A stretch of DNA of 38,944 nt, taken from a virus. Both the position numbers and the translations under genes were made by a program. The notes under the pieces are model-generated. The model was given only the letters and a program-made list of their open reading frames with translations. It had not been told where the DNA came from and did no database searches. Location: positions 1 to 38,944 of the IMG/VR virus record IMGVR_UViG_3300010885_039210. One strand, 5' to 3'. This document shows, piece by piece, positions 1-38,944 of the stretch (positions are counted from its first letter, which is position 1; each line of letters starts with the position of its first letter).

Positions 1-3000
1 ACCTGTAGTATTTGATATAGATGTGGTTGTATTTGTTATTATTAAATTACCAGTAATTGTTACATTACCGGTAATTGTACCACCAGTATTTGCATTGACT
101 GTATTGTTTGCTCTTGTATAAGCAGAGTTGGCTTGTGCAAAAGCACCATTAGCATATGAACCTGCTGGTATCGATGTATTAGCTATATCAAAAGCACCAT
201 TAGCATAAGAACTGATTGAAACCGTATTCGAACTGGCCGTATTAGCAATACCAAAAGCAGAATTAGCATATGAACTGATTGAAACTGTATTAGAACTGGC
301 TGTATTAGCTATAGCGAATGCTGAGTTGGCATAGGAACCGGCTGCTGTTACAGCAGAACCAGTATTAGCAGCAGCAAAAGCACCATTAGCATAAGAACTG
401 GCTGATCCTGCATTAGTGATGGCTGTATTTGAAGAAACAAATGCACCATTAGCATATGAACCAGCCGGTATCGCTGTATTGGCTACAGTGAATGCTGAGT
501 TAGCATATGAACTGGCTATTGTTGCATTAGTGATGGCTGTATTTGAAGAAACAAATGCACCATTAGCATATGAACCTGCTGGTATTGCTGTGTTGGCTAT
601 TAAGAATGCACCATTAGCATATGAACTAGCTGAATTAGCTATACCAAAAGCACCATTAGCATAGGAACTGATTGAAACCGTATTAGAACTGGCTGAGTTA
701 GCTGTTAAGAATGCACCATTGGCATATGAACTGGCTGTATTAGCTCCACCAAAAGCACCATTAGCATAAGAACCTGCTGGTATCGCTGTATTAGCTATAC
801 CAAAAGCTGAGTTGGCATATGAACTGGATGATGCAGCATAGGAACTGGCTGTATTAGCTCCAGCAAAAGCAGAATTAGCATATGAACTAGCTGATCCTGC
901 ATTAAAATTGGCTGAGTTAGCAATACCAAAAGCACCATTAGCATAAGAACTGATTGAAACTGTATTGGAACTGGCTGTATTGGCTGTTAAGAATGCACCA
1001 TTAGCATATGAACCTGCTGGTATCGATGTATTAGCTATAGCGAATGCGGAGTTGGCATAGGAACTGGCTATTGCTGCATTAGAACTGGCTGTATTAGCAC
1101 CAGCAAAAGCACCATTAGCATAGGAACCTGCTGGTATTGCTGTATTAGCTATACCAAAAGCAGAGTTGGCATATGAACTGATTGAAACTGTATTAGAACT
1201 GGCTGTATTAGCTATAGCGAATGCTGAGTTGGCATAGGAACTTGCTGGTATTGCTGTATTAGCTACATTGAATGCTGAGTTGGCATAGGAACTAGCTGAT
1301 GCAGCATTAGAACTGGCTATTTCTGCATTAGAACTGGCTGAGTTAGCGCCAGCAAAAGCACCATTGGCATATGAACCTGCTGGTATCGCTGTATTAGCTA
1401 CATCGAATGCAGAGTTGGCATAGGAACTAATTGAAACTGTATTGGAACTGGCTGTATTAGCACCAGCAAAAGCACCATTAGCATAAGAACCTGCTGGTGT
1501 TGCTGTATTAGCTACATTGAATGCTGAGTTGGCATAGGAACTAGCTGATGCAGCATTAGAACTGGCTGTATTAGCACCAGCAAAAGCACCATTGGCATAT
1601 GAACCTGCTGGTATTGCTGTATTAGCAATACCAAAAGCAGAGTTGGCATAGGAACTGGCTGAAGCAGCATTAGAACTGGCCGTATTAGCTCCATCAAAAG
1701 CACCATTAGCATATGAACTTGCTGAATTTGCAGTACCATATGCTGCATTAGCTTGGCTAAAAGCAGCGTTTGCTTGACGCCGCGCATATGCAGCACCTGT
1801 AAATGTGTTAGATGATTCAAACGCAACATTAGCTTGGTTGAAAGCTGCGTTAGCAAATTGCAACAAGTCGGTGCCGTAACTGGTTATTTTGTAACCAGCA
1901 ACATTTGCTATAAGTGTACCAACATTGGATTCTGTGGCTGAACCTGGACTTAATATATTCGATGATGGGTCTTCTGCTATATCTCTAAACAACAAGAAAT
2001 TATTGGAACCAGCTTGGCGAACTAATCCGTGATAAGTTGGTACAGCTGAACCGGCAGTTAATGAAGTACCATAAAAACCTATATCTAAAGTATCACTAAG
2101 AACATTATTGTTGGCTAACTTAATTAATGAATCAGTTGTTTGTATGACCGTTGTATTTACGGATATTGTCGTTCCATTAATAAACAAATTTCCAGTAACT
2201 GTAACATCACCTGTAATTGTACCACCAGATTGAACATTTAAAGAATTATTTGCTCTCACATAGGCAGAATTGGCATATGAACCTGCTGGTATTGCTGTAT
2301 TAGCTACTAAGAATGCCGAGTTGGCATAGGAACTGGCTGAATTGGAAGAAGCAAATGCACCATTAGCATAGGAACTGGCTGAATTAGCAATACCAAAAGC
2401 ACCATTAGCATAAGAACCTGCTGGTGTTGCTGTATTAGCTATAGTGAATGCAGAGTTGGCATATGAACTAGCTGAATTAGATATATCAAAAGCACCATTA
2501 GCATAAGAACTGATTGAAACTGTATTGGAACTGGCTGTATTAGCTGTTAAGAATGCTGAGTTGGCATAAGAACCTGCTGGTGTTGCTGTATTAGCTATAC
2601 CAAAAGCAGAGTTGGCATAGGAACTAATTGAAACTGTATTGGAACTGGCCGTATTAGCAATACCAAAAGCACCATTAGCAAAAGAACTTGCTGTATTAGC
2701 TCCAGCAAAAGCACCATTAGCATACAAACTCGCTAATCCTACACTAGTAATGGCCGTATTAGCTGCCACAAATGCACCATTAGCATATGAACCTGCTGGT
2801 ATTGCTGTATTTGCTACAGTGAATGCACCATTGGCATATGAACTGGCTGATCCTGCATTAGTGATGGCCGTATTCGAAGAAACAAAAGCACCATTAGCAT
2901 ATGAACCTGCTGGTATTGCTGTGTTAGCTTGTGTGAATGCACCATTAGCATATGAACTGGCTGATCCTGCATTAGTGATGGCCGTATTTGAAGAAACAAA

Positions 3001-3771
3001 AGCACCATTAGCATATGACCCAGCTGGTATTGCTGTGTTGGCTACAGCAAAAGCACCATTGGCATATGAACTGGCTGAGTTAGCTATACCAAAAGCACCA
3101 TTAGCATAGGAACTAATTGAAACTGTATTAGAACTGGCTGTATTGGCTGTTAAGAATGCACCATTAGCATAGGAACTAGCTGAATTAGCAATATTATATG
3201 CGGAGTTGGCATAAGAACTAGCTGAAGCAGCATTAGAACTGGCCGTATTCGAAGAAACAAATGCACCATTAGCATATGAACTAGCTGAATTAGCATAAGA
3301 ACTTGCCGTATTAGCTCCATCAAAAGCACCATTAGCATATGAACTGGCTGAGTTAGCAATGCCAAAAGCACCATTAGCATATGACCCAGCCGGTATTGCT
3401 GTATTAGCTACTGTATATGCTGAGTTGGCATAGGAACTGGCTGAATTGGAAGAAGCAAAAGCACCATTAGCATAGGAACTTGCCGTATTAGATCCAGTAA
3501 ATGCACCATTAGCATAGGAACTGGCTGAGTTAGCAATGCCAAAAGCACCATTAGCATATGACCCAGCCGGTATTGATGTATTAGCTTGTGTGAATGCAGA
3601 GTTGGCATAAGAACTGGCTGAGTTGGATACAATGAAGGCACCATTAGCATAAGAACTGGCTGAGTTGGCTGTTCCATGTGCTGAATTAGCTTGGATATAT
3701 GCTGAATTGGCATATCCTCCTACTATTTTTACATTTTTATTTTCTTGATTGCCAATGTATGAATATGTCAT
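1..3771 (-). CDS. Giant heptad-repeat tail fibre protein (fibre A), 3' end outside window
   Basis: The frame is open from the ATG at 3771-3769 to the left edge (1257 codons, no stop), so the C-terminus is missing. The protein starts MTYSYIGNQENKNVKIVGG and then consists almost wholly of units such as SYANGAFGIANSASSYANSAF. These have a 7-residue period with an Ala-Asn pair opening most heptads, and some units are interrupted by the 10-residue variant ANTAIPAGSY. A non-repetitive beta module of about 135 residues lies near residues 503-639 (GGTITGDVTVTGNLFINGT, then QTTDSLIKLANNN and VPTYHGLVRQAGSNNFLLF). It is almost identical to two modules in fibre B. A second copy is just starting when the window ends. 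The gene begins one base after the stop of the 108-residue gene and shows only a weak ribosome site, so coupled translation is likely. The role as a virion fibre or shaft is inferred from repeats, modules and position. Confidence 0.85.
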   Translation of the reverse strand, partial: MTYSYIGNQENKNVKIVGGYANSAYIQANSAHGTANSASSYANGAFIVSNSASSYANSAFTQANTSIPAGSYANGAFGIANSASSYANGAFTGSNTASSYANGAFASSNSASSYANSAYTVANTAIPAGSYANGAFGIANSASSYANGAFDGANTASSYANSASSYANGAFVSSNTASSNAASASSYANSAYNIANSASSYANGAFLTANTASSNTVSISSYANGAFGIANSASSYANGAFAVANTAIPAGSYANGAFVSSNTAITNAGSASSYANGAFTQANTAIPAGSYANGAFVSSNTAITNAGSASSYANGAFTVANTAIPAGSYANGAFVAANTAITSVGLASLYANGAFAGANTASSFANGAFGIANTASSNTVSISSYANSAFGIANTATPAGSYANSAFLTANTASSNTVSISSYANGAFDISNSASSYANSAFTIANTATPAGSYANGAFGIANSASSYANGAFASSNSASSYANSAFLVANTAIPAGSYANSAYVRANNSLNVQSGGTITGDVTVTGNLFINGTTISVNTTVIQTTDSLIKLANNNVLSDTLDIGFYGTSLTAGSAVPTYHGLVRQAGSNNFLLFRDIAEDPSSNILSPGSATESNVGTLIANVAGYKITSYGTDLLQFANAAFNQANVAFESSNTFTGAAYARRQANAAFSQANAAYGTANSASSYANGAFDGANTASSNAASASSYANSAFGIANTAIPAGSYANGAFAGANTASSNAASASSYANSAFNVANTATPAGSYANGAFAGANTASSNTVSISSYANSAFDVANTAIPAGSYANGAFAGANSASSNAEIASSNAASASSYANSAFNVANTAIPASSYANSAFAIANTASSNTVSISSYANSAFGIANTAIPAGSYANGAFAGANTASSNAAIASSYANSAFAIANTSIPAGSYANGAFLTANTASSNTVSISSYANGAFGIANSANFNAGSASSYANSAFAGANTASSYAASSSSYANSAFGIANTAIPAGSYANGAFGGANTASSYANGAFLTANSASSNTVSISSYANGAFGIANSASSYANGAFLIANTAIPAGSYANGAFVSSNTAITNATIASSYANSAFTVANTAIPAGSYANGAFVSSNTAITNAGSASSYANGAFAAANTGSAVTAAGSYANSAFAIANTASSNTVSISSYANSAFGIANTASSNTVSISSYANGAFDIANTSIPAGSYANGAFAQANSAYTRANNTVNANTGGTITGNVTITGNLIITNTTTSISNTTG
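1855..2262 (-). repeat. Conserved fibre beta module, copy in fibre A
   Basis: This segment of about 400 bases encodes GGTITGDVTVTGNLFINGT through QTTDSLIKLANNN to VGTLIANVAGYKITSYGTDL. It is nearly identical at nucleotide level to 5215-5622 and 8050-8455 in fibre B, for example the shared run around the codons for NNFLLFRD. A fourth copy begins at the left edge (1-105). Confidence 0.9.
2270..3715 (-). repeat. 21-bp-periodic tandem repeats coding Ala-Asn heptads (fibre A shaft)
   Basis: The DNA repeats at a basic step of 21 bases (7 codons: Ala-Asn-x-Ala-Phe/Tyr-x-x), grouped in 42- and 63-base units. Some units have a 9-base addition coding Pro-Ala-Gly-Ser-Tyr. The same pattern covers 110-1850, most of 4170-5210, and much of 5640-6020, 6580-8040 and 8470-9020. 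Confidence 0.9.
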
Positions 3772-3772
3772 T

Positions 3773-4099
3773 TTAACTTATTTCTAATGCACTCATTATA
3801 ACATCTGATGAAGATGCATCACTGGTCGAAACGGAAATATAATCTCCAGATTCTAGTACCAATTTTTGGTCACCCCCAATTGGAACTAAAGAATTTCCTG
3901 GATCTATTGGTACTTTTCTAGCCATATAATAGTTTGAACCGCCTATGTTCACAATAACATTTGCCGTTATTGAAGTTTCTAAATTATTAGATACTGTAAA
4001 ACCAATAACAGTAGTTTGTACACCCGCGCCAGCTGTATATATTGTGGTAGGACTTATTCCTACAGCTGATTGAGCATAGTTTTTAAAATTGTTTGCCAT
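3773..4099 (-). CDS. Small virion protein preceding fibre A (108 aa), possible adaptor
   Basis: This is a compact protein starting MANNFKNYAQSAVG, with alternating hydrophobic stretches (TVIGFTVSN, ITANVIVNIGG, QKLVLESGDYISV) that suggest a beta-sandwich of about 100 residues. It has no signal peptide or membrane segment. Proteins of this look occur beside fibre genes in T4-like cyanophages, usually annotated only as structural or hypothetical. An AGGAA ribosome site lies eight bases upstream of the ATG, and a CATAAATA late-promoter box sits 20 bases upstream. Fibre A follows after one base, so the two are almost certainly co-expressed. A role as fibre adaptor or attachment protein is inferred from this pairing alone; no enzymatic motif is visible. 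Confidence 0.75.
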   Translation of the reverse strand: MANNFKNYAQSAVGISPTTIYTAGAGVQTTVIGFTVSNNLETSITANVIVNIGGSNYYMARKVPIDPGNSLVPIGGDQKLVLESGDYISVSTSDASSSDVIMSALEIS

Positions 4100-4119
4100 T
4101 TGTAATTCCTAGTATTTTT

Positions 4120-4127
4120 TATTTATG
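4120..4127 (-). promoter_or_regulatory. Predicted late promoter box CATAAATA upstream of the fibre A unit
   Basis: On the minus strand the octamer CATAAATA differs at one base from the T4 late -10 element TATAAATA. It lies in the 30-base gap between fibre B and the 108-residue gene, leaving 20 bases to the ATG, which fits a start site near 4113. The same octamer is found in two other gene junctions of this window. Confidence 0.6.
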
Positions 4128-4129
4128 TG

Positions 4130-7100
4130 TTAACCTAAAGCTATAGAATATGCTAATGCATCGGATATTGCAGTGTTAGCTCGCAAAAATGCACCATTAG
4201 CGTATGAACTAGATGAAGCAGCATTTAAAGTACCTGTATTGGCTGTTAAGAATGCGCCATTAGCATATGAACTGGCTGAAGCAGCATTAGAACTGGCCGT
4301 ATTAGCTCCAGCAAATGCAGAGTTAGCATAAGAACTTACTGATGATGCATTGGAACTAGATGTATTAGCTATTAAAAATGCAGAATTAGCATAAGAACTG
4401 GCTGATGCTGCGTTGGAACTGGCCGTATTAGCTGCTACAAATCCAGAGTTAGCATAAGAACTGGCTGAAGCAGCATTAGAACTTGCCGTATTAGATCCAG
4501 TAAAAGCACCATTAGCATATGAACCTGCTGGTATTGCTGTATTTGCTACAGAAAATGCACCATTAGCATATGAACTGGCTGAATTGGATACACCATAAGA
4601 TGCATTAGCTTGAATGTAGGCAGAGTTAGCATATGAACTTGCTGAAGCAGCATTGGAACTGGCTGTATTAGCTCCAGCAAATGCAGAGTTGGCATATGAA
4701 CTTGCTGAATTTGCGGAACCATAGGATGAGTTAGCATACGAACTTGCTGAAGCAGCATTGGAACTGGCTGTATTAGCTCCAGCAAATGCAGAGTTAGCAT
4801 ATGAACTTGCTGATGCTGCGTTGGAACTGGCCGTATTAGCTGCTAAGAATGCACCATTGGCATATGAACTTGCTGAATCCGAATTCAAACTGGCCGTATT
4901 AGCTGTTAAGAATGCTGAGTTGGCATATGAACTAGATGAGTTTGCAATACCAAAAGCACTATTAGCATACGAACTTGATGATGCAGCATTGGAACTGGCT
5001 GTATTAGCTCCAGTGAAAGCACCATTGGCATACGAACTGGCTGAATTGGCACCAGCAAAAGCACCATTAGCATATGAACTGGCTGAATTGGCAGTGATAT
5101 AAGATGCATTAGCGTGTAGAAAAGCTGAATTGGCATAAGATCCAGTTGATAATACACCGGTACCAGAATTGGATGAATCAAACGCAGCATTAGCTTGCAT
5201 AAAGGCTGCATTAGCAAATTGTAACAAGTCGGTACCATAACTGGTTATCTTATAACCGGCAACATTTGCTATAAGTGTGCCAACATTGGATACACTTGCC
5301 GATCCTGCCGGCATTACATTCGATGATGGGTCCTGTGTTATATCCCTAAACAACAAGAAATTATTGGAACCAGCTTGCCTCACAAGACCATGATAAGTTG
5401 GTACACCAGAACCAGTTGTTAATGAGGTACCATAGAACCCTATATCTAAAGTATCACTGTATAAGTTGTTATTAGCTAACTTGATTAACGAATCTGTTGT
5501 TTGTATGACCGTTGTATTTACGGAGGTAGTTGTTCCATTAATGAAAAGATTACCCGTTACAGTCACATCACCTGTAATTGTACCACCTGATTGTACATTT
5601 AGTGAATTATTTGCCCGAATGAAAGATGCATTAGCATAATTAGAAGCACTATTAGCCGAATTGAAAGATAAATTAGATTGTGCAAAAGCACCATTTGCAT
5701 ATGAACTAGATGAATTGGCAGTAACATAAGCACCATTAGCATATGAACTGGATGAATTAGCTACACCATAAGCTGAGTTGGCAAAAGAACCAGCTGATGC
5801 TACACCAGAACCAGTATTTGCAGCTTCAAATGCACCATTAGCATATGAACTTGCTGAAGATGCATTGGAACTAGCCGTATTCGATGCAGCAAAAGCACCA
5901 TTAGCATATGAACTTGCTGAATTTGCAGTACCATATGCTGCATTAGCTTGAACATACGATGAATTGGCATATGAACTAGCCGTATTCGATGCAGCAAAAG
6001 CACCATTAGCATATGAACCTGATGAGTTTGCTGAATAACGTGCAACATTATCAATACCATAACCTCTAAAACCGGTAGCTTGTATTGTACTATCTGGGAA
6101 TGTTATATTGCCATTTGCATCAAAGTTCCATGTACCGCCGGTAGTTTGAATATGTGCGCCAGATGGATCAACCCATACAAAAGATTGGTCGGCATTGTTT
6201 AATCGTACATACCCAACACCAGCTTCACCATTATATAAATCTAATCCGTTAGTATAACCACTACGTCCAACTTGTCCTATTATTCCCGGTAATGTTAATG
6301 AACCATCTTTAGCAAAAGTCCAAAGAGCACCTGCCGCACCCGTATCTGTAATTATCTCTACACGACCATTGGAATATACTTGTGCAAGGCCTCCATCACC
6401 GCTCTGAGCAGCAACACCAGTTATATCATTATTGGCATTTGCTGTAATTTTTATTAAATTGTTAGCTTCATTTCCTACTAATGCAGCACCACCAGTAAAT
6501 TTTACATCACTACCCACACCAGAAAGTATCAATGATCCAATCATTGTATCACCGGATTTACTTACTTTGGTGTTTGAATTAATGTAGGCTGAGTTTGCAT
6601 ACAAACTGGATACATTAGCACCAGCAAAAGCACTATTAGCATATGAACTTACTGAGTTAACTGCACCATAAGATGCATTGGCTTGTATGTAAGCTGAGTT
6701 AGCATATGATCCTGCAATAATTACACCAACACCTGCATTAGCTGCTGCGAAAGCCGCATTGGCATGTACATAAGCGGAGTTTGCATAGTAACTAGCGGAG
6801 TTAGCATAAGAACTGGCCGTATTAGCACCAGCAAATGCACCATTGGCATAAGAACTAGCTGAGTTGGCTGTGCTATATGCTGCATTGGCTTGTATGTAAG
6901 CAGTATTAGAATAAAAGCTAGCTGATGCTGCATTGGAACTGGATGTATTTGTTGCATCGAAAGCAGCATTAGCATAAATACTCGCTGAATTGCCAACAGA
7001 TAAAGCTGAAAATGCTAATACGAAAGCACCATTGGCATAAGAACTAGCATTATTCGCAGCACCAAATGCACCATTAGCATATGAAGCAACGGAGGCTACG

Positions 7101-9790
7101 GACGCCGTAGTATTAGCCGATGTGTTAGCCATTTCGAACGCTGCATTTGCTTGAACAAAAGCACTATTAGAATAAGAACTGGCTGTATTGGCTACAGTGA
7201 ATGCACCATTGGCATATGAACTGGCTGAATTTGCTATAATAAAAGCTGAATTAGTGTGAAAATATGCCGAATTTGCATAAGAACTAGCTGAATTAGCATC
7301 ACGGTAACCTGAATTAGCATAGGAACTAGCTGAAGCAGCATTTAAAATACCTGTATTAGCACCAGCAAAAGCACCATTAGCATAGGAACTTGCCGTATTA
7401 GATCCAGTAAATGCACCATTAGCATAGGAACTGGCTGAATTGGCACTATCATATGATGAATTGGCGTGAACATATGCTGAGTTTGCATATAAACTAGATG
7501 TGTTTGCTGTTATGAAAGAACCATTGGCATATGAACTGGCTGAATTTGCAGTACCGTATGCTGAGTTAGCATATTGACCGGTTGAATTCTGTGATACATA
7601 GGCCGAATTGGCTTGTATGTAAGCTGAGTTAGCATATGAACCTGCTGAATTTGCAGTACCGTAAGCTGAATTGGCATATGAACCAACTAAGTTAGCTGCG
7701 CCGTATGCTGAATTAGCTTGTATGTAACCTGAGTTTGCATATGAACCTGCTGAGTTCGCGGTGTCGTATGCTGAATTGGCTTGTATGTAAGCTGAATTGG
7801 CATATGAACCAACTAAGTTAGCCGCACCGTACGCTGAATTGGCATGTGTATATGATGAATTGGCATATTGACCTGTTGTATTCTGTGATACATAAGCCGA
7901 ATTGGCATGTGTATATGCTGAATTGGCATAAGAACTGGCTGAATTTGCGGCACCGTATGCTGAATTGGCATATGATCCAGCAGCAACTACACCACTACCA
8001 GAATTAGCTGCATCAAAAGCTGCATTAGCTTGAATATAAGATGAACTTGAAAACTTTAATAAATCTGTACCATAACTAGTTATTGTATAACCGGCAACAT
8101 TTGCTATAAGTGTTCCAACATTTGAAACAGTTGCTGATCCAGGAGAAAGTATATTCGATGATGGGTCCTGTGTTATATCCCTAAACAACAAGAAATTATT
8201 GGAACCAGCTTGGCGAACTAATCCATGATAAGTTGGTACAGCTGATCCAGCTGTCAATGAACTACCATAAAAACCTATGTCCAAGGTATCACTAAGGACA
8301 TTATTGTTTGCTAATTTAATTAATGAATCTGTTGTTTGCACAACCGTTGTGTTAACTGTTGTTGTTGTGCCATTGATGAACAAATTTCCAGTAACTGTTA
8401 TGTCACCTGTAATTGTACCACCTGTTTGTACATTCAGTGAATTATTTGCACGAATAAAAGATGCATTCGCTTGCAGATAAGCTGAGTTTGCATATGATCC
8501 TGCAACAATTACACTAGCACCTCCATTAGCTGCTGCGAAAGCCGCATTGGCCTGAGTAAATGCTGTGTTTGCATATATGCCTGTTGTATTCTGTGCTATG
8601 TAAGATGCATTGGCGTGAATATGTGCTGTATTTGCATATACACCTGTTGTATTCTGTGATACATATGCCGAATTGGCCTTAGTAAATGCTGTATTTGCAT
8701 ATTGACCTGTTGTATTCTGTGATTCATAAGCTGTGTTGGCCTGAAAATAAGCTGAGTTTGCATAATTACCGGATGAATTCTGTGACACATATGCTGAATT
8801 GGCATGAATATAAGCTGAGTTAGTGTATTGACCCGTTGAATTCTGAGACACATAAGAAGAATTGGCGTGAATGTATGCTGAGTTAGCATATTGACCGGTT
8901 GAATTCTGCGATACATATGCCGAATTAGCATGTAGATACGCGGCATTCGCATATACTCCAGTTGTATTTTGTGAATCATAAGCTGCGTTAGCTTGTAAAA
9001 AGGAACCATTGGCACTCGAAGTAAGGTCAATAGAATCACCTGTGTTTGAGGTAATAATCAAACTACCACCTGAATTACTCAAAATAATACCGTCAATGTC
9101 AACAGACCCTGGACCAACAAACAATGATTTGAATGGTTTTAATTTAGATCCCAAGAAATAAGTATTGGCTGTTGATGGAATAATATTACCAGTTATAACC
9201 AAATCACCAAGCATTGTATCGCCATTTTTACTCAATTTAGTACCAGCTAAATTGAATGCTGTATTGGACCTAGCGAAAGCACCGTTGGCATAAGAAGCTG
9301 CTGGTATTACATTGTTAGCTTGTGCAAACGCAGCATTAGCCTGTGTGTATGCAGTATTAGCTTGTGCAAATACAATATTAGCTAGATTGTATGAAGCATT
9401 TGCTCGAGCAAAAGCAAGATTTGCGTTCGCTCTAGCTTCTGTATCTGTTACAGATACTATCAATGAATTAGCTAAAGCAAAAGCTGAATTGGCGTATGAT
9501 CCAGTTGTTATTACTGCGGATAATGCATTGTTTGAATTTTCTCTTGCAAATACATCAACACCTCCATTCGCAATTGTATTTGCTAATCTGAAGGCCGCAT
9601 TAGCGAACATCCCCACCGTATTTGAAGAAACTCTGGCAACCACTTCATTAGTGGTAATTTGAATTTGCAGATTTGCAATATTGGACGTTTGAGTTGGTCC
9701 TGTGAATTGCGTAATTGATTGCACGGCCGCAGGAGAACCTGGACCAACTCGTACACTAATCTGATTTACTGGATTTACTATAGTTGCCAT
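4130..9790 (-). CDS. Giant heptad-repeat tail fibre protein (fibre B), 1886 aa
   Basis: The N-terminus (VNPVNQISVRVGPGSPAAV) resembles the head region of cyanophage-type fibre proteins. Next come a beta module with KLSKNGDTMLGDLVITG (about residues 180-260), 21-residue units of three heptads (ANSAYIHANSAYVSQNSTGQ), and a beta module (about 443-580, GGTITGDITVTGNLFINGT). More SYANSAY heptads follow, then a second beta region (about 1073-1257) with LWTFAKDGSLTLPG and TWNFDANGNITFPDS, a near-duplicate of the first module (about 1388-1524), and a final Ala/Ser/Asn tract ending ALAYSIALG. No C-terminal chaperone domain is visible, unlike fibre C. The ATG overlaps the stop of the 122-residue gene (TAATG), so translation is coupled. 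I infer an elongated, probably trimeric fibre or whisker attached to the baseplate or tail. Receptor binding cannot be assigned to any part from sequence. Confidence 0.88.
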   Translation of the reverse strand: MATIVNPVNQISVRVGPGSPAAVQSITQFTGPTQTSNIANLQIQITTNEVVARVSSNTVGMFANAAFRLANTIANGGVDVFARENSNNALSAVITTGSYANSAFALANSLIVSVTDTEARANANLAFARANASYNLANIVFAQANTAYTQANAAFAQANNVIPAASYANGAFARSNTAFNLAGTKLSKNGDTMLGDLVITGNIIPSTANTYFLGSKLKPFKSLFVGPGSVDIDGIILSNSGGSLIITSNTGDSIDLTSSANGSFLQANAAYDSQNTTGVYANAAYLHANSAYVSQNSTGQYANSAYIHANSSYVSQNSTGQYTNSAYIHANSAYVSQNSSGNYANSAYFQANTAYESQNTTGQYANTAFTKANSAYVSQNTTGVYANTAHIHANASYIAQNTTGIYANTAFTQANAAFAAANGGASVIVAGSYANSAYLQANASFIRANNSLNVQTGGTITGDITVTGNLFINGTTTTVNTTVVQTTDSLIKLANNNVLSDTLDIGFYGSSLTAGSAVPTYHGLVRQAGSNNFLLFRDITQDPSSNILSPGSATVSNVGTLIANVAGYTITSYGTDLLKFSSSSYIQANAAFDAANSGSGVVAAGSYANSAYGAANSASSYANSAYTHANSAYVSQNTTGQYANSSYTHANSAYGAANLVGSYANSAYIQANSAYDTANSAGSYANSGYIQANSAYGAANLVGSYANSAYGTANSAGSYANSAYIQANSAYVSQNSTGQYANSAYGTANSASSYANGSFITANTSSLYANSAYVHANSSYDSANSASSYANGAFTGSNTASSYANGAFAGANTGILNAASASSYANSGYRDANSASSYANSAYFHTNSAFIIANSASSYANGAFTVANTASSYSNSAFVQANAAFEMANTSANTTASVASVASYANGAFGAANNASSYANGAFVLAFSALSVGNSASIYANAAFDATNTSSSNAASASFYSNTAYIQANAAYSTANSASSYANGAFAGANTASSYANSASYYANSAYVHANAAFAAANAGVGVIIAGSYANSAYIQANASYGAVNSVSSYANSAFAGANVSSLYANSAYINSNTKVSKSGDTMIGSLILSGVGSDVKFTGGAALVGNEANNLIKITANANNDITGVAAQSGDGGLAQVYSNGRVEIITDTGAAGALWTFAKDGSLTLPGIIGQVGRSGYTNGLDLYNGEAGVGYVRLNNADQSFVWVDPSGAHIQTTGGTWNFDANGNITFPDSTIQATGFRGYGIDNVARYSANSSGSYANGAFAASNTASSYANSSYVQANAAYGTANSASSYANGAFAASNTASSNASSASSYANGAFEAANTGSGVASAGSFANSAYGVANSSSSYANGAYVTANSSSSYANGAFAQSNLSFNSANSASNYANASFIRANNSLNVQSGGTITGDVTVTGNLFINGTTTSVNTTVIQTTDSLIKLANNNLYSDTLDIGFYGTSLTTGSGVPTYHGLVRQAGSNNFLLFRDITQDPSSNVMPAGSASVSNVGTLIANVAGYKITSYGTDLLQFANAAFMQANAAFDSSNSGTGVLSTGSYANSAFLHANASYITANSASSYANGAFAGANSASSYANGAFTGANTASSNAASSSSYANSAFGIANSSSSYANSAFLTANTASLNSDSASSYANGAFLAANTASSNAASASSYANSAFAGANTASSNAASASSYANSSYGSANSASSYANSAFAGANTASSNAASASSYANSAYIQANASYGVSNSASSYANGAFSVANTAIPAGSYANGAFTGSNTASSNAASASSYANSGFVAANTASSNAASASSYANSAFLIANTSSSNASSVSSYANSAFAGANTASSNAASASSYANGAFLTANTGTLNAASSSSYANGAFLRANTAISDALAYSIALG
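5215..5622 (-). repeat. Conserved fibre beta module, distal copy in fibre B
   Basis: It encodes the same about 135-residue module as the segments at 1855 and 8050, flanked on both sides by Ala-Asn heptads. The order of sub-motifs is unchanged and no frame disruption is visible. Confidence 0.9.
8050..8455 (-). repeat. Conserved fibre beta module, proximal copy in fibre B
   Basis: It has the same module with small changes (TVNTTVVQTTDSL). The DNA similarity to the fibre A copy is closest around positions 8170-8290 (compare 1970-2105). Duplication or gene conversion between fibres is the simplest reading. Confidence 0.9.
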
Positions 9791-10158
9791 TATGCGTTAG
9801 GACCATTGGAATTAATTACTCCGGTCACACCAGGAGAAACATATATTTGTCCTTCCAATACGCGAGTTACCAAATTAGTTACTGAATCTTTAATATTTAC
9901 ATCGTAGACGTATTTTCCATAAGGTACATTTGCAGTATTTGCTGCAGGCAACGAGAGGAATATTACACCTTCTTCTTCCGTACTGATTTGTGCAGTAAAA
10001 GTGAAAGCAACATTAGCTGTTGTGTAAGATTTCTTTGCTCTGGAATTTATAGTGAAGGTTGTTAAGTCATATGGAACTCCAGAATCATCTGTTAACGCCA
10101 GACGGGCATTAAAGGATGACCCTTGTTCCATGTATTGGTCTGAATATCCTGCGGCCAT
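9790..10158 (-). CDS. Ig-like small virion protein preceding fibre B (122 aa), likely fibre adaptor
   Basis: The protein starts MAAGYSDQYMEQGSSFNARL and continues LALTDDSGVPYDLTTFTINS. This is an Ig-like pattern (EQG, then xLTLxDxxGxPxDLT) seen in small proteins next to phage fibre genes and in the N-terminal domain of BppU-type baseplate proteins. The rest alternates beta strands and turns (GVIFLSLP, YGKYVYDVNI, EGQIYVSPG). It has 122 residues and no signal peptide. An AAAAGG ribosome site precedes the ATG, and a CATAAATA promoter box is 31 bases upstream. The stop codon overlaps the fibre B start (TAATG). I infer a baseplate-to-fibre connector role from context and resemblance; there is no direct functional evidence. 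Confidence 0.75.
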   Translation of the reverse strand: MAAGYSDQYMEQGSSFNARLALTDDSGVPYDLTTFTINSRAKKSYTTANVAFTFTAQISTEEEGVIFLSLPAANTANVPYGKYVYDVNIKDSVTNLVTRVLEGQIYVSPGVTGVINSNGPNA

Positions 10159-10189
10159 TTTGTGTACCTTTTATTTGATTCGTTAACCA

Positions 10190-10197
10190 TATTTATG
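10190..10197 (-). promoter_or_regulatory. Predicted late promoter box CATAAATA upstream of the fibre B unit
   Basis: CATAAATA on the minus strand lies in the 40-base gap after fibre C, 31 bases before the ATG of the 122-residue gene. It is the same octamer as at 4120 and 36216 and is one base from the T4 late consensus. Together with the box at 4120 it would let each adaptor-fibre pair be expressed separately from the upstream baseplate operon. Confidence 0.6.
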
Positions 10198-10198
10198 T

Positions 10199-13100
10199 TT
10201 ATTGGTTTGGTATTTTTGATTTTAAGTATTGAACTTCTTCGTTCAATTCTTTAATAGCCTCGATTAACAATCCTACTATATTACCATAGTCAACAGTTAG
10301 TGTTTCTTCTTTCGTTGTCTGATCCACATGTGACATTACAACTTCAGGCAATACTTCTAAAACTTCTTGTGCAATTACACCGACCTTTTTCGTTTCAATA
10401 TCGTCTTTTTTGTTGTAATAAACACCACGCAATTGTAAAGTTTTTTGCAATGCATTATCAATATTTGTTATATTTGTTTTAAGCTTTATGTCAGAGAATG
10501 CAACGACGTTACCTGTAGCTGTTAGGACACCTGTAGCAGTTACACCTGCATTAGCTGTAACGAGCCTATCTGCTCCGTTTATTCGATGAAATATACCTGA
10601 AGTTGCATTCTGGACCGTGTTCGTTAAATCACTTTGGAATATATTATCAGGATTAACACTTCCACTACCATTTCCATTTGTTCCAAAATATACTGCGCCG
10701 GTAGAGGTAATTCTAAATCTTTCGTTGCCTGATGTAGATATAGAAACTTCATCAGTTCTAACAGAACCAATACCTGTATAAGTTGCAGATGGCGCTTGAT
10801 TAGTCAAGAATCGCATACTGCCATATAAAGACAATTTAGGAGCAGACGCAGGTGTTGTTCCACCAATTGCTACGTTGCCTTGTAAATAATTGTCTGCGGT
10901 TCCTGAGAGATATAGATTATATTTACCTGCGCCAGCTGAAACAAGTCCTTTAATACCGTGATTAGATACTGTTCCTGTGGACAAATCGGAAATATATAAA
11001 CCCGTAGTATTAGATACAACACTTCCACCACCTGCAGCTACACTTCCGGCTATGAAATGATAAGCGTTATCCATAAGTAAACCGGCGGCGGTGTTTATAT
11101 TACTATAGAAACTTGTATACCAACCAGTCATACCACCACCGGCGGTTCCTTGCGCCAATATACCACCACCCGTGTTCGTACCTGTAACTGTTTTACCAAG
11201 AGTAAGATTCCACTGAGATACCCCTACGCCATTAAATCCAATATCACCACCAATGTTGCCTGTAAATGAAGGTGATGTTAATGAAGGTGAAGCACTCAAT
11301 ACAACTGAACCTGATCCTGTAGATGTTTTGACGCCAGTACCACCGGAAGCAACCGGAATTGCCTGTGAACTGGTTATTTGTCCTGCAGCAATATTTGTGT
11401 TTAATGTTCCATAATTTGCAAACGATATAGCACCAATGCTATTACTTGTTGGATTCGTTGTTATTCCTTGGAATAGAGTCCAATCACTCGAAGCTGTTCT
11501 TACTAGTCCTGTATATTTTGTACCTGAGTTTACATATTGGCCATAAAAACCAATATCAACCACATCTCCTAAATTGTTTGCAGCTAATTCAATTAGAGAA
11601 TCGACTGTTTGGTATGTTGCAACATTTATGTAAGTTAATGGACCATTAACAGTTAAACTACCAGTAATACCCAAATCACCTATGATTTGACCACCCGCAG
11701 TGGTTAGTGCAGTATTTGCTTTACCATATGCAGAGTTAGCATAGGAACTAGCAGATGCAGCATTTAATGTACCTGTATTAGCTTGTACATACGCAGCATT
11801 AGCGTAAAGGCCAGTTGTATTAGCTCTAGCAAATGCACCATTAGCATAGGAACTAGCAGATGCAGCATTTAAAATGGATGTATTAGCAATACCAAATGCA
11901 GAGTTAGCATAAGAACTAGCAGAAGCCGCATTTAGAGTACTTGTATTAGCTCCAGCAAAAGCAGAGTTAGCATATGAACTAGCTGAATTGGCATCACGGT
12001 ATCCTGAATTAGCATAAGAACTAGCAGAAGCCGCATTTAGAGTACTTGTATTAGCTCCAGCAAATGCAGAGTTGGCATAGGTACTGGCTGAATTTGCATC
12101 ACGGTAACCTGAATTAGCATATGAACTGGCTGATGCTGCATTTAAAGTACCTGTATTAGCTGCAGCAAAAGCGGCATTAGCATATACGGATGCTGCAGGT
12201 GAACCTGCCGTAAATTGAACTGAACCATCAGTAAAGGTGATACCATTGCCAGTACCTCTAATAACAACATTACCAGAATACACACTGCCACTTACACCAA
12301 GACCGCCTGCAATAACAACAGCACCAGTTGTGTTTGAAGAAGATGCTGTTGCATTTGAGAAAGTGTATACTGTTAAGCTGTTAGCTGTTACTGATGTGCC
12401 AGTATTAGCCAATGCATTATTAGCTACACCATAAGCTGAGTTGGCATATGAACTTCCTGCTGCAGCATTTAAAGTACCTGTATTAGCTACTAAGAATGCA
12501 CCATTAGCGTATGAACTGGCTGACGCTGCATTTAGAGTACCTGTATTAGCCTGTGCAAAACCGGCATTAGCATATACAGATGCTGCAGGTGAACCTGCTG
12601 TGAATTGAACCGAACCATCAACAAAGGTAATACCATTACCAGAACCTCTAATCACAACATTGCCAGTGTATACACTACCACCTACACCAAGGCCGCCCGC
12701 AATAACAACGGAACCTGTGACATTCGAAGTGGATGCCGAATTGTTGGCAAAAGTATACATGGTACTGCTATTAGACGTAACCATGGAACCAACATTAGCT
12801 AAAGCATTGTTAGCAGTAATAAATGCTGAATTAGCATACGAACTGGCTGAATTTGCGCCACGGTAAGCTGAATTAGCATACGAACTAGCTGAATTGGATA
12901 CACCATAGGCCGAGTTAGCATATTGACCGGTTGTATTCTGTGACACATAGGCTGAATTAGCTTGCAGGTAAGCTGAGTTAGCATACGAGCTAGCTGGTAT
13001 TGCTACATTAGCTTGCTCAAAGGCCGCGTTCGCATGAGCATAAATTGCGGTTGAAATTTTACTTGTTGGAACAGTTGAAATACTTGTAGATGTTGCACTA

Positions 13101-15370
13101 TCAGAAATCATATTCGCAGTCATAATTTGCGAATAGTAAATGCCATTATTTGAATCTAAAATATCCCAATATTTGTTTGATTCGTTCCAACGAATGGATG
13201 CATTTGCATTTGGAATACCAGTGGGTTGATTATTTGCAGTACCCCTATTAACACTAAAATAACTTGTGATTGGTGTATAAGTGTTTGCGTTTATTACAAA
13301 ATTATTTGTTGTATAAACTGTTGTTCCGTTAATTGTAAACGTACCACCAACAGTCAAACCGGCCGATGTTGTTAGAGATTGGAATGCACCTACAGCATTT
13401 GTTGCCGAAAGAAGTGTACTCGTAACATACAGTTTAGATACAGAAATATCATTATTTGCAATAAGATAACTAGTATATGTATTTCCTGTTGCTGAAATTG
13501 TAGTAGTGTTTACAGTATTATTAGATTGCAAATATCCTGTGTAACTAGTGCCAACCACAGACATTGTAACCGTATTAACTGTCGCGTTAGCTTGTAATGC
13601 ATTAGTCCAAGTATTGCCAACCACGGATAATGTGGCTGTATTTACGGAAGCATTAGCTTGAACTCTATTAGTCCAAGTATTGCCAACCACGGATAATGTG
13701 GCTGTATTTACAACGCTATTAGCTTGTAACTTATCGGTATAAGCAATGTTAGTAACAGATAATGTGGCTGTATTTACAACGCTATTAGCCTGTAACTTAT
13801 CTGTAAACGAAATATTGGTAACCGATAATGTGGCTGTATTAACAACGCTATTAGCTTGTACTTTATCGATATGAGAAATATTGGTAACAGATAAAATAGC
13901 AGTATTAACTGAACTATTAGCCTGTAATCTATCTGTATGAGAAATATTAGTAACAGATATTGTAGCCGTATTAACAGCAGTATTAGACTGAATTACTCCA
14001 GTTAAAACATTCGTATTGGCCTGAAGTGTGTTAGTATACGAAACACCTGTGACCGATAGTGTGGCGGTATTTACAACACTATTAGCTTGTAACTTATCAG
14101 TATAAGCAATGTTGGTAACAGATAATGTGGCTGTATTTACAACGCTATTAGCTTGCACTTTATCGATATGAGAAATATTGGTAACAGATAGTGTTGCGGT
14201 ATTTACTGAACTATTAGCCTGTAATCTATCTGTGTGAGAAATATTAGTAACAGATATTGTAGCCGTATTAACTGAACTATTAGCTTGTAATCTATCAGTA
14301 TGAGAAATACCAGTCACTGAAGAAGTCGCAGTATTAACTGCCGTATTAGATTGAAGTGTGTTAGTAAAACTTGCACCAGTAACGGATATTGTGGCAGTAT
14401 TAACTGCTGTATTAGATTGTAACTTATCTGTGTAAGAAATACCTGTCACCGAAGAAGTCGCAGTATTTACAACGGCATTAGCTTGTAGTTTATCGGTATA
14501 TGAAATATTGGTAACAGATAGTGTGGCTGTATTTACAGCGGTGTTAGCTTGTAAAGTATTGGTAAAACTTGCGCCTGTTACTGAAGACGTGGCTGTATTT
14601 ACGGCGGTGTTAGCTTGTAAAGTATTGGTAAAACTTGCACCAGTAACGGATATTGTGGCAGTATTAACTGCGGTGTTAGATTGTAGTTTATCTGTAAAGG
14701 ATGTGCCTGTTACAGATAGTGTTGCGGTATTTACTGAAGTGTTAGATTGAATTACCCCAGTTAAAATGTTTGTATTGGCCTGAAGTGTGTTAGTATAAGT
14801 GGTACCAAGAACTGATAAAACTGCTGCTCTGATAGCCGTATTAGATACTAATAAGTTAGTATAAGTTTCTAATGTTGCATTTAAATTACCTGTAATTATT
14901 GTGTCTTTACCAACACTCAAAGTATTTTGAAGAACTGTTGATTTAGTAACAGTTAATGTATTTGAGATTAATGTTACACCACCTACCGTTAAAGAACCTC
15001 CAATTGTAGTATTGTTTGCAACGGCTAAACTTGTTCCTGTATTGCTAGCATAAACTGTACCATTTGCAGTAACAGAACCACTTGCAACCAAGCTTTGTGT
15101 AGTGTTTGTAAAATATACTTGTTTACCTACAGTTAAATTATTGTCGATAGTTGCTGAAGAAGCTGTACCTGTAACCAGTAATTGACCTGCAACAATGACA
15201 TTATTAGCAACAGTTAAAGCAGTACCTGTACCATTTAAAGTCAATGTGCCAGAATCTTTGGTCCAATCGTATTTACCAATAGAATTGATTTCATTGGAAC
15301 CTGCATTAGTTGCAACGATCCAATCACCAAATGTGTTGGCGTAGCCTAAAATATTAACTGTATTTGCCAT
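10199..15370 (-). CDS. Giant tail fibre protein with C-terminal S74 self-cleaving chaperone (fibre C), 1723 aa
   Basis: The N-terminus MANTVNILGYANTFGDWIV is typical of cyanophage-type fibres. Residues 30-165 are beta repeats (SLTVGG, TIDNNLTVGK). Residues of about 212-642 hold 19 tandem 22-residue units (NTATLSVTNISYTDKLQANS). Then come SYANSAY heptads, two copies of a VVIAGGLGV/GNVVIRG/NGITF module, and a diverged version of the fibre A/B beta module (about 1227-1330, TVDSLIELAANN, VVDIGFYGQY). A PVASGGTGVKTSTGSG segment follows. The last 98 residues are a peptidase S74 (endosialidase-type) intramolecular chaperone: SDIKLKTNI with the Ser1626/Lys1631 spacing, KKVGVIAQEVLEVLPEVV, and a final coiled coil LLIEAIKELNEEVQYLK. 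Family knowledge says this domain helps the trimer fold and then cleaves itself off just before the Ser. The gene starts one base after the 73-residue gene; AAAGG serves as the ribosome site. Confidence 0.92.
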   Translation of the reverse strand: MANTVNILGYANTFGDWIVATNAGSNEINSIGKYDWTKDSGTLTLNGTGTALTVANNVIVAGQLLVTGTASSATIDNNLTVGKQVYFTNTTQSLVASGSVTANGTVYASNTGTSLAVANNTTIGGSLTVGGVTLISNTLTVTKSTVLQNTLSVGKDTIITGNLNATLETYTNLLVSNTAIRAAVLSVLGTTYTNTLQANTNILTGVIQSNTSVNTATLSVTGTSFTDKLQSNTAVNTATISVTGASFTNTLQANTAVNTATSSVTGASFTNTLQANTAVNTATLSVTNISYTDKLQANAVVNTATSSVTGISYTDKLQSNTAVNTATISVTGASFTNTLQSNTAVNTATSSVTGISHTDRLQANSSVNTATISVTNISHTDRLQANSSVNTATLSVTNISHIDKVQANSVVNTATLSVTNIAYTDKLQANSVVNTATLSVTGVSYTNTLQANTNVLTGVIQSNTAVNTATISVTNISHTDRLQANSSVNTAILSVTNISHIDKVQANSVVNTATLSVTNISFTDKLQANSVVNTATLSVTNIAYTDKLQANSVVNTATLSVVGNTWTNRVQANASVNTATLSVVGNTWTNALQANATVNTVTMSVVGTSYTGYLQSNNTVNTTTISATGNTYTSYLIANNDISVSKLYVTSTLLSATNAVGAFQSLTTSAGLTVGGTFTINGTTVYTTNNFVINANTYTPITSYFSVNRGTANNQPTGIPNANASIRWNESNKYWDILDSNNGIYYSQIMTANMISDSATSTSISTVPTSKISTAIYAHANAAFEQANVAIPASSYANSAYLQANSAYVSQNTTGQYANSAYGVSNSASSYANSAYRGANSASSYANSAFITANNALANVGSMVTSNSSTMYTFANNSASTSNVTGSVVIAGGLGVGGSVYTGNVVIRGSGNGITFVDGSVQFTAGSPAASVYANAGFAQANTGTLNAASASSYANGAFLVANTGTLNAAAGSSYANSAYGVANNALANTGTSVTANSLTVYTFSNATASSSNTTGAVVIAGGLGVSGSVYSGNVVIRGTGNGITFTDGSVQFTAGSPAASVYANAAFAAANTGTLNAASASSYANSGYRDANSASTYANSAFAGANTSTLNAASASSYANSGYRDANSASSYANSAFAGANTSTLNAASASSYANSAFGIANTSILNAASASSYANGAFARANTTGLYANAAYVQANTGTLNAASASSYANSAYGKANTALTTAGGQIIGDLGITGSLTVNGPLTYINVATYQTVDSLIELAANNLGDVVDIGFYGQYVNSGTKYTGLVRTASSDWTLFQGITTNPTSNSIGAISFANYGTLNTNIAAGQITSSQAIPVASGGTGVKTSTGSGSVVLSASPSLTSPSFTGNIGGDIGFNGVGVSQWNLTLGKTVTGTNTGGGILAQGTAGGGMTGWYTSFYSNINTAAGLLMDNAYHFIAGSVAAGGGSVVSNTTGLYISDLSTGTVSNHGIKGLVSAGAGKYNLYLSGTADNYLQGNVAIGGTTPASAPKLSLYGSMRFLTNQAPSATYTGIGSVRTDEVSISTSGNERFRITSTGAVYFGTNGNGSGSVNPDNIFQSDLTNTVQNATSGIFHRINGADRLVTANAGVTATGVLTATGNVVAFSDIKLKTNITNIDNALQKTLQLRGVYYNKKDDIETKKVGVIAQEVLEVLPEVVMSHVDQTTKEETLTVDYGNIVGLLIEAIKELNEEVQYLKSKIPNQ
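12185..12800 (-). repeat. Direct duplication of a fibre module in fibre C
   Basis: Two copies (about 12188-12425 and 12565-12795) encode VVIAGGLGVSGSVYSGNVVI and RGTGNGITFTDGSVQFTAGS with flanking heptads. They are similar at DNA level and separated by about 140 bases of Ala-Asn repeats. Confidence 0.8.
13445..14735 (-). repeat. Tandem 66-bp repeat array (19 copies) in fibre C
   Basis: Nineteen consecutive units each encode 22 residues of the form NTATLSVTNISYTDKLQANS, with variants at the NIS/GAS and TDK/TNT positions. One internal unit (and the segment leading into the array) carries an extra 11 residues (QANTNVLTGVIQSN). Adjacent units are similar at DNA level, which indicates growth by duplication. 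Regular spacing in frame points to a repeated beta or coiled shaft element. Confidence 0.9.
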
Positions 15371-36215: not shown

Positions 36216-36223
36216 TATTTATG
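36216..36223 (-). promoter_or_regulatory. Predicted late promoter box CATAAATA for the baseplate operon
   Basis: CATAAATA on the minus strand is placed 27 bases before the gp48 ATG and overlaps the first codon of the divergent gp4 gene. It is the third instance of this octamer at a gene junction in the window. It would drive the whole leftward baseplate operon. Confidence 0.6.
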
Positions 36224-37909: not shown

Positions 37910-38635
37910 ATGGCTTTACCTAAAATAGATTCACCAATCTTTGAATTGACTTTACCTATGAGCAAGAAACTGGTGCGCTTCCGTCCTTTCTTAGTGAAAG
38001 AACAGAGGAACCTAATGATGGCTATGGAGGCAAATGAAAGAGAAACAATTGAAAAGAACATTAAGCAAGTTCTACACAATTGTACCCTGACAGAGAACAT
38101 TGATATTGATAATTTACCAATCATTGATATTGAATACTACTTTATCCAACTGCGAGCACGATCCGTCGGTGAAGTAGTAGAAAACAAATACCGCTGCGAG
38201 AACATAGTAGAAGAAAAAGCTTGTGGTAATTTGATGGAAGTTAGTATAAACTTATTAGATATTCAAATTACTGAAACACAAGAAAGTAAATCTGAAATTC
38301 AACTTACAGATAAGATTATGATTAAACTATCTTATCCAAAGTTTTCTGCACTCGATTTAGTGAAGGACACACAAAGTTCTACCGATATGGCTTTTGAAAT
38401 GATTGTCAATAGTGTTGAATACATTTTTGACGGTGAACAATTCTATTATGCAAATGAAAGTTCAAAAGAAGAAATGGTTGAATTTATTGAATCTTTGAAT
38501 CAAGAACAGTTTTCAAGAATTGAAGACTTTTTTGACAATCTTCCTGTATTGAATAAGAAGATTGAAATGGACTGTAAGAAATGTGGTTTCCATCATACCA
38601 TTGATGTGGAGGGCCTTGAAAATTTTTTCGGGTAG
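37910..38635 (+). CDS. 26: gp26-like baseplate hub/tail assembly protein with four-cysteine zinc ribbon (241 aa)
   Basis: The N-terminus MALPKIDSPIFELTLPMSKK and VRFRPFLVKEQRNLMMAMEA is the mark of the T4_baseplate family (T4 gp26, 208 aa), a hub assembly factor. Residues 60-90 (DIDNLPIIDIEYYFIQLRAR) also fit. Cys96 and Cys105 with Cys222 and Cys225 (DCKKCGFHH) form a probable zinc ribbon whose second half is next to the C-terminus. The acidic stretch ESLNQEQFSRIEDFFDNLP precedes it. The gene ends LENFFG, and its last codons contain a canonical slippery run, so a 304-residue fusion with the next ORF is likely (see frameshift site). In T4, gp26 and gp51 act before the tape-measure hub is formed. 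Confidence 0.85.
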   Translation: MALPKIDSPIFELTLPMSKKLVRFRPFLVKEQRNLMMAMEANERETIEKNIKQVLHNCTLTENIDIDNLPIIDIEYYFIQLRARSVGEVVENKYRCENIVEEKACGNLMEVSINLLDIQITETQESKSEIQLTDKIMIKLSYPKFSALDLVKDTQSSTDMAFEMIVNSVEYIFDGEQFYYANESSKEEMVEFIESLNQEQFSRIEDFFDNLPVLNKKIEMDCKKCGFHHTIDVEGLENFFG

Positions 38636-38657
38636 TGATGCGGCATGATACTCTGCG
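38608..38657 (+). promoter_or_regulatory. Candidate programmed -1 ribosomal frameshift site
   Basis: Three elements line up. GGAGGG (38608-38613) resembles a ribosome binding site with no start codon at the right distance. It is followed after 6-9 bases by overlapping slippery heptamers in the gp26-like frame, A AAT TTT (38620-38626) and T TTT TTC (38623-38629). After 9-12 bases there is a weak 5-bp stem, TGCGG (38639-38643) with CTGCG (38653-38657). A -1 shift avoids the TAG at 38633, enters the frame of the next ORF without meeting a stop, and gives a fusion of about 304 residues. Confidence 0.55.
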
Positions 38658-38823
38658 AAATTATTATACAACCAATTTTGCATTGATGCAGCATCACAAA
38701 TACAGTCTAACCGAACTAGAAACCATGTTACCTTGGGAAAGAGACATTTATATTACTTTGCTTACACAATATATTGAAGAAGAAAATGAGAAAATAAAAC
38801 AACGAAACGCAACTAAGAAATAA
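38635..38823 (+). CDS. Small helical ORF in the gp51 position; probable T-like extension of the gp26-like protein (62 aa)
   Basis: As a separate gene it would start at GTG 38635 (sharing a base with the upstream TAG) or ATG 38638. Neither has a good ribosome site; only GGGT lies nearby, too close. Its frame is -1 relative to the gp26-like gene. The product is helical, with SLTELETMLPWERDIYITLL and an acidic/basic tail EEENEKIKQRNATKK. The LPWERD-Y-x-LL helix is like those in the second component of phage tail assembly chaperones and in small hub-assembly proteins after gp26 in marine T4-like phages, where T4 has gene 51. I think it is expressed mainly as a fusion through the frameshift site, possibly also alone by stop-start coupling. 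Confidence 0.7.
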   Translation: MMRHDTLRNYYTTNFALMQHHKYSLTELETMLPWERDIYITLLTQYIEEENEKIKQRNATKK

Positions 38824-38825
38824 AA

Positions 38826-38944
38826 ATGGAACAAAAAGTCTTCGACAGTATGCTTAAATCGGGAGAATTTGAGCAGATGTTCAACGAAAATAAAATCAAC
38901 GAATTGTTGAGTGTTGGAAATTTGTCTAAAAAACAGGTAGACCA
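38826..38944 (+). CDS. Start of an unidentified gene, cut by the right edge (39 codons seen)
   Basis: An ATG two bases after the previous stop opens a frame that runs to the window end: MEQKVFDSMLKSGEFEQMFN then ENKINELLSVGNLSKKQVD. It is helical and charged. Its place after a gp26-like/T-like pair is where T4-like phages encode hub or tape-measure proteins and where other tailed phages encode the tape measure after the chaperones. That identity is a positional guess; the visible part is too short to recognise. Confidence 0.5.
   Translation, partial: MEQKVFDSMLKSGEFEQMFNENKINELLSVGNLSKKQVD

Follow-up and report, generated by a model that had tools for sequence, protein, structure and literature searches.

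In E. coli dnaX, an SD-like element lies about 10 nt upstream of a slippery heptamer and a stem follows a few nt downstream, and in the lambda tail assembly genes G/GT the heptamer is G GGA AAG. For T4-like phages, Vladimirov and colleagues are said to have found frameshifting conserved in several groups, with T4 itself using the separate genes 26 and 51. The tail assembly chaperone genes of T4-like phages were identified by Vladimirov, Gautam and Davidson (2022; Virology 566:9-15). In the passages of later papers that cite this work, polyT stretches in the TAC-N genes of these phages are treated as known -1 signals (PMC12846349), and some T4-like phages are described as replacing the frameshift with two genes, a short one and a longer fused one (PMC10885494). 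A 2016 review had called the lambda gpG/gpGT-type frameshift widely conserved 'except T4' (PMC5009743). The tail chaperone frameshift with GTTTTT reported in Vandenendeviridae and Andersonviridae (PMC12846349) belongs to other phage families and uses a different motif from the locus described here.

The window, meaning the whole 38.9-kb virus record analysed (38,944 nt), carries T4-type structural genes (gp4, gp2, tail tube and gp26) on the + strand from position 36221. Its gp26-like protein has the N-terminal PF12322 domain (E 2.4e-58) and its gp51-type C-terminal domain is reached via the -1 frame, the two parts expected of a TAC-N/TAC-NC pair; as in the T4-like systems in the cited passages, a polyT slippery signal lies in the TAC-N gene, and the alternative of two genes, one short and one long and fused, occurs among the phages compared. 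The sequence-only reading knew of no earlier description of a gp26/gp51 frameshift. As far as the cited passages relay the work of Vladimirov, Gautam and Davidson (2022), the phenomenon was already published in substance, and the window is a further probable case of this T4-like chaperone frameshift. The SD-like element and stem of the window clade and the missing start codons may be additions to that work.

Table 1. Features at and around the gp26/gp51 junction, in window coordinates
Feature	Position	Strand	Basis
gp26-like tail assembly chaperone, short form (TAC-N), 241 aa	37910..38635	+	PF12322 E 2.4e-58; phrog_150 E 3.7e-64
GGAGGG, predicted Shine-Dalgarno-like stimulator within coding region	38608..38613	+	codon bias and predicted anti-SD pairing
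Slippery heptamer T TTT TTC, in frame AAT TTT TTC	38623..38629	+	invariant in sequence and position in 80/80 IMG/VR relatives and 79/80 cyanophage-type loci
-1 frame extension, C-terminal domain of the long form	38629..38823	+	phrog_634 E 5e-28; phrog_150 C-terminal end (238-278/282) E 4e-5
0-frame stop codon TAG, end of short form	38633..38635	+	sequence
5' arm of stem: GTGATGC, one unpaired G, GCAT	38635..38646	+	folding
3' arm of stem: ATGC, one unpaired A, GCATCAC	38686..38697	+	folding
Start of next gene, probable tape measure-type protein	38826..38944	+	position and composition only

Re-reading of the window sequence bore out the coordinates and the -1 frame relation first proposed for this junction. 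The gp26-like ORF ends in GTG GAG GGC CTT GAA AAT TTT TTC GGG TAG, and the -1 extension continues for 64 codons past the slip to TAA at 38821-38823, giving a predicted fusion of 240 + 64 = 304 residues with the junction ...NFFRVVMRHD..., as the sequence-only reading had anticipated. Profile phrog_150 covers both the gp26-like part and the -1 extension, and the records of relatives label the latter gp51 or baseplate hub assembly catalyst. An AlphaFold2 model of the gp26-like protein (pLDDT 85.8) matched a phage 'Baseplate hub assembly chaperone' in Foldseek with an E-value of 3e-21. Neither sequence nor fold comparison with solved structures gave a relative of the chaperone at a convincing E-value; the HK97 chaperone 2ob9 appeared in the fold-search list at a non-significant E of about 5.

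The comparative alignment that had been suggested as a check on the junction revealed a fixed heptamer in a fixed frame relation. A protein scan collected 80 IMG/VR relatives (67-100% identical in gp26), in all of which (80/80) the downstream ORF is in frame -1 relative to gp26 and T TTT TTC precedes the stop by 10 nt (once 13). When cyanophage S-SM1 gp26, which shares 35% identity with that of the window, served as the query of a second scan, 80 cyanophage-type loci were recovered, 79 of which have T TTT TTC at about -10, the one exception being a disrupted gp26; scans with Vi01 gp26 and nt-1 gp26 yielded few loci. Fourteen of the 17 isolate phages inspected carry T TTT TTC (S-SM1, ACG-2014d/e/f, S-SRM01, syn9, DSL-LC02, S-H34, P-HM1, BUCT608, Milchi, nt-1 and IG49) or T TTT TTT (phiM12), the remaining three being Ackermannviridae, and T TTT TTC is also present in Aeromonas phage AP1 and two further vibriophages related to nt-1. 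Among relatives less than 95% identical, the slip codons for Phe are TTT in 43/43 and TTC in 43/43, compared with 0.70 and 0.30 in the rest of the genes (uncorrected for shared ancestry), and the codon ahead of Phe-Phe always ends in T. The combination GGAGG-N(6-14)-TTTTTTC occurs once in the window and was present in 2 of 100 shuffles. Bare TTTTTTC has nine copies in the window, which is below expectation; since the bare heptamer is therefore not rare, the real evidence is its conservation. The sequence-only reading had named two overlapping heptamers, of which T TTT TTC is conserved; the other, A AAT TTT, is in frame in the window, but AGT, TCT, GGT or GCT replaces AAT in relatives, and it was rejected as the slip site.

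The GGAGG element ends 10 nt before the heptamer. Among relatives less than 95% identical, its codons are Val GTG in 37/41 (background 0.11) and Glu GAG in 35/43 (background 0.20), both uncorrected for shared ancestry, and the predicted pairing with the 16S 3' end (anti-SD) in the window clade is -9.4 kcal/mol versus -5.8 kcal/mol in synonymous recodings. At cyanophage-type loci the corresponding difference is small (-6.6 versus -5.9 kcal/mol), and marine cyanophages have a weak SD signal. The proposed conservation of GGAGG thus held in the window clade, where the element is kept by synonymous choice. As judged from these comparisons, synonymous codon choice reveals selection on the slip codons and, in the window clade, on the SD-like element.

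Downstream, the sequence-only reading had noted a weak stem at a distance of 9-12 bases, whereas the predicted stem, which is not weak, begins 5 nt past the heptamer and has 11 pairs (-21.5 kcal/mol, z -2.4 against shuffles). The stem region scored z -4.8 against synonymous recodings in L002, a relative whose junction is identical to that of the window, and the 16 distinct stem-bearing sequences averaged -19.6 kcal/mol versus -9.7 kcal/mol in synonymous recodings (mean z -3.9). The stem uses CGG for Arg, a codon found in 9/609 cases elsewhere in these genes. It is absent from most relatives, and the remaining 30 distinct sequences gave no stem signal against synonymous recodings. RNAalifold found no common structure across all relatives because only one group has the stem, which was revealed by splitting the groups. 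On the gp26 tree the stem requires four changes, at least two of them forced by well supported branches, although four may be too many since a strict pattern scored L017 as stemless even though it folds. No compensatory (both-side) changes were seen in the stem group, so the support for the stem is synonymous constraint only; by this measure, synonymous codon choice shows the predicted stem to be under selection in the window's subclade. The dnaX-type three-part layout claimed for the junction therefore stands for that subclade, in which SD-like element, heptamer and stem all appear selected, and fails for most relatives, which lack the stem. The gene, product and heptamer of E. coli dnaX also differ from those of the window.

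Gene content offered a second line of comparison. T4 gp51 matches PF12322 over residues 1-201, its C-terminal part matches the family of the small ORF and is homologous to the window's -1 extension, and T4 gp26 matches PF12322 alone. The small ORF had been equated with gp51, which needs correction: T4 gp51 corresponds to a whole gp26-like protein plus the small domain. T4, Cronus, Brandy and 50AhydR13PP each have two copies of PF12322, in divergent gp26 and gp51 genes, the latter encoding both parts in a single frame. One copy of PF12322 is present in each of 22 records without a separate fused gene, of which 17 (including G001 and G002) have the heptamer, four are Ackermannviridae-type and lack it, and one had a junction that was not read. 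These copy counts suggest that in most lineages one gene with a frameshift stands for the two genes of T4. T4 gp51 has been described as about five times as long as cyanophage gp51 (PMC3037559); the shortness of the latter is explained if it is a -1 extension of gp26 rather than a shrunken gene. Several records (ACG-2014e, ACG-2014d, AP1) leave out the second ORF, and annotation should join both ORFs.

Taken from sequence comparison, one gene very probably gives rise to two tail assembly chaperones through -1 ribosomal frameshifting at T TTT TTC. Most ribosomes would stop at the TAG at 38633 and release the 241-aa gp26-like protein, while a minority would slip -1 on the heptamer, where both tRNA-Phe can re-pair, aided upstream by the pairing of 16S rRNA with GGAGG, which ends 10 nt away, and downstream by the stem, which begins 5 nt away; the slipped product would be a 304-aa protein with a gp51-type C-terminal domain. 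What the comparison itself shows is the conserved signals, the frame relation, the homology and the gene copy numbers, whereas the slipping, its frequency and the chaperone role are inferred.

The small ORF could alternatively be a separate gene translated through stop-start coupling at TAGTGATG, with no fusion. The -1 ORF of the window does offer candidate starts at the gp26 stop, GTG 38635 and ATG 38638, and since the ATG sits 2 nt past that stop, a separate 61-aa protein made by coupled initiation would also be possible in the window; several cyanophage records likewise annotate gp51 as a gene of its own. However, the window GTG and ATG fall within the 5' arm of the stem, both parts are fused in T4 gp51, and the heptamer is constant where the starts are not: of 59 distinct relatives, 35 have neither ATG nor GTG between the gp26 stop and +8, and 26 lack any ATG, GTG or TTG ahead of +21, yet the RHD..NYY..NF core of the encoded product is conserved. 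The same lack of a start ahead of +21 was found in 26 of 67 distinct cyanophage-type loci. Because nearly half of the distinct relatives lack a start before the core of the second ORF, separate initiation cannot explain the layout, and we regard it as very unlikely. Least credible of all is slippage of RNA polymerase on the T run, adding one U to give fusion-encoding mRNAs: a homopolymer run does lie at the junction, but it is exactly six T, never longer and always followed by C in 126/126 distinct sequences, six T is short for transcriptional slippage, and the SD-like element kept by synonymous choice and the stem present in some relatives both fit ribosomal and not transcriptional slippage.

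Ribosomal frameshifting thus remains the preferred reading, and the comparative evidence is best read in the way proposed earlier, with the -1 fusion as the T4-family counterpart of lambda G/GT. In lambda a single gene directly ahead of the tape measure position gives a short and a -1 extended form (Xu, Hendrix, Duda 2004), as the gp26-like gene, ahead of a probable tape measure-type gene, is predicted to do, and the gp26/gp26-51 pair corresponds to G/GT in this respect, although the heptamers differ, the SD-like element is a feature of the window, and no sequence relation was found between lambda gpG/gpGT and the window chaperone. Judging by lambda G/GT, the shared N-terminal portion would bind the tape measure protein, and tail tube or hub components would be recruited through the C-terminal domain. 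The wrapping of the tape measure and the start of the tail tube are probably determined by the short and long forms.

Across lineages, we lean toward a reading in which the heptamer is fixed while its stimulators turn over, since the SD-like element is selected in the window clade and hardly in marine cyanophages, the stem appears in at least two separate branches and is missing between them, and Ackermannviridae retain the -1 layout without a canonical heptamer. The gp26/gp51 junction would then form a natural series for the tuning of frameshift levels.

The Ackermannviridae-type loci (L098, L186-L203, L095, L100, L102) keep gp26 and the small -1 ORF and have no X XXY YYZ heptamer (Ackermannviridae junction, ATTTTCATTTAA). 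At the junction, Vi01-like phages and Cygsa01 have ATTTTC ahead of the stop, and two Vibrio phages have CTTTTTC. A start codon is lacking ahead of +32 in most Vi01-like loci, and a non-canonical slip is possible in the Ackermannviridae-type phages. In Salmonella phage Vi01, about 0.5 kb past gp26 (L098:3244-3752) has no annotated gene and contains the small -1 ORF. In Aeromonas phage AP1 (L104:3214-3382), T TTT TTC is accompanied by a -1 ORF that the record leaves unannotated and that lacks a start codon ahead of +89.

The counterpart of the next gene in a 170-kb relative (G001) encodes a 978-aa coiled-coil protein, the first 769 aa of which matched no tape measure family. In that 170-kb relative (L210:1557-6287), the 978-aa gene and a 592-aa gene of similar build stand in tandem past the chaperone and end just ahead of a gp32-like SSB gene, the part tested having no family match. 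The other end of the window (1-15370) holds, on the minus strand, three very long genes (1257+, 1886 and 1723 aa) that are rich in repeated SSYANGAF-like units and probably encode tail fibre-type proteins.
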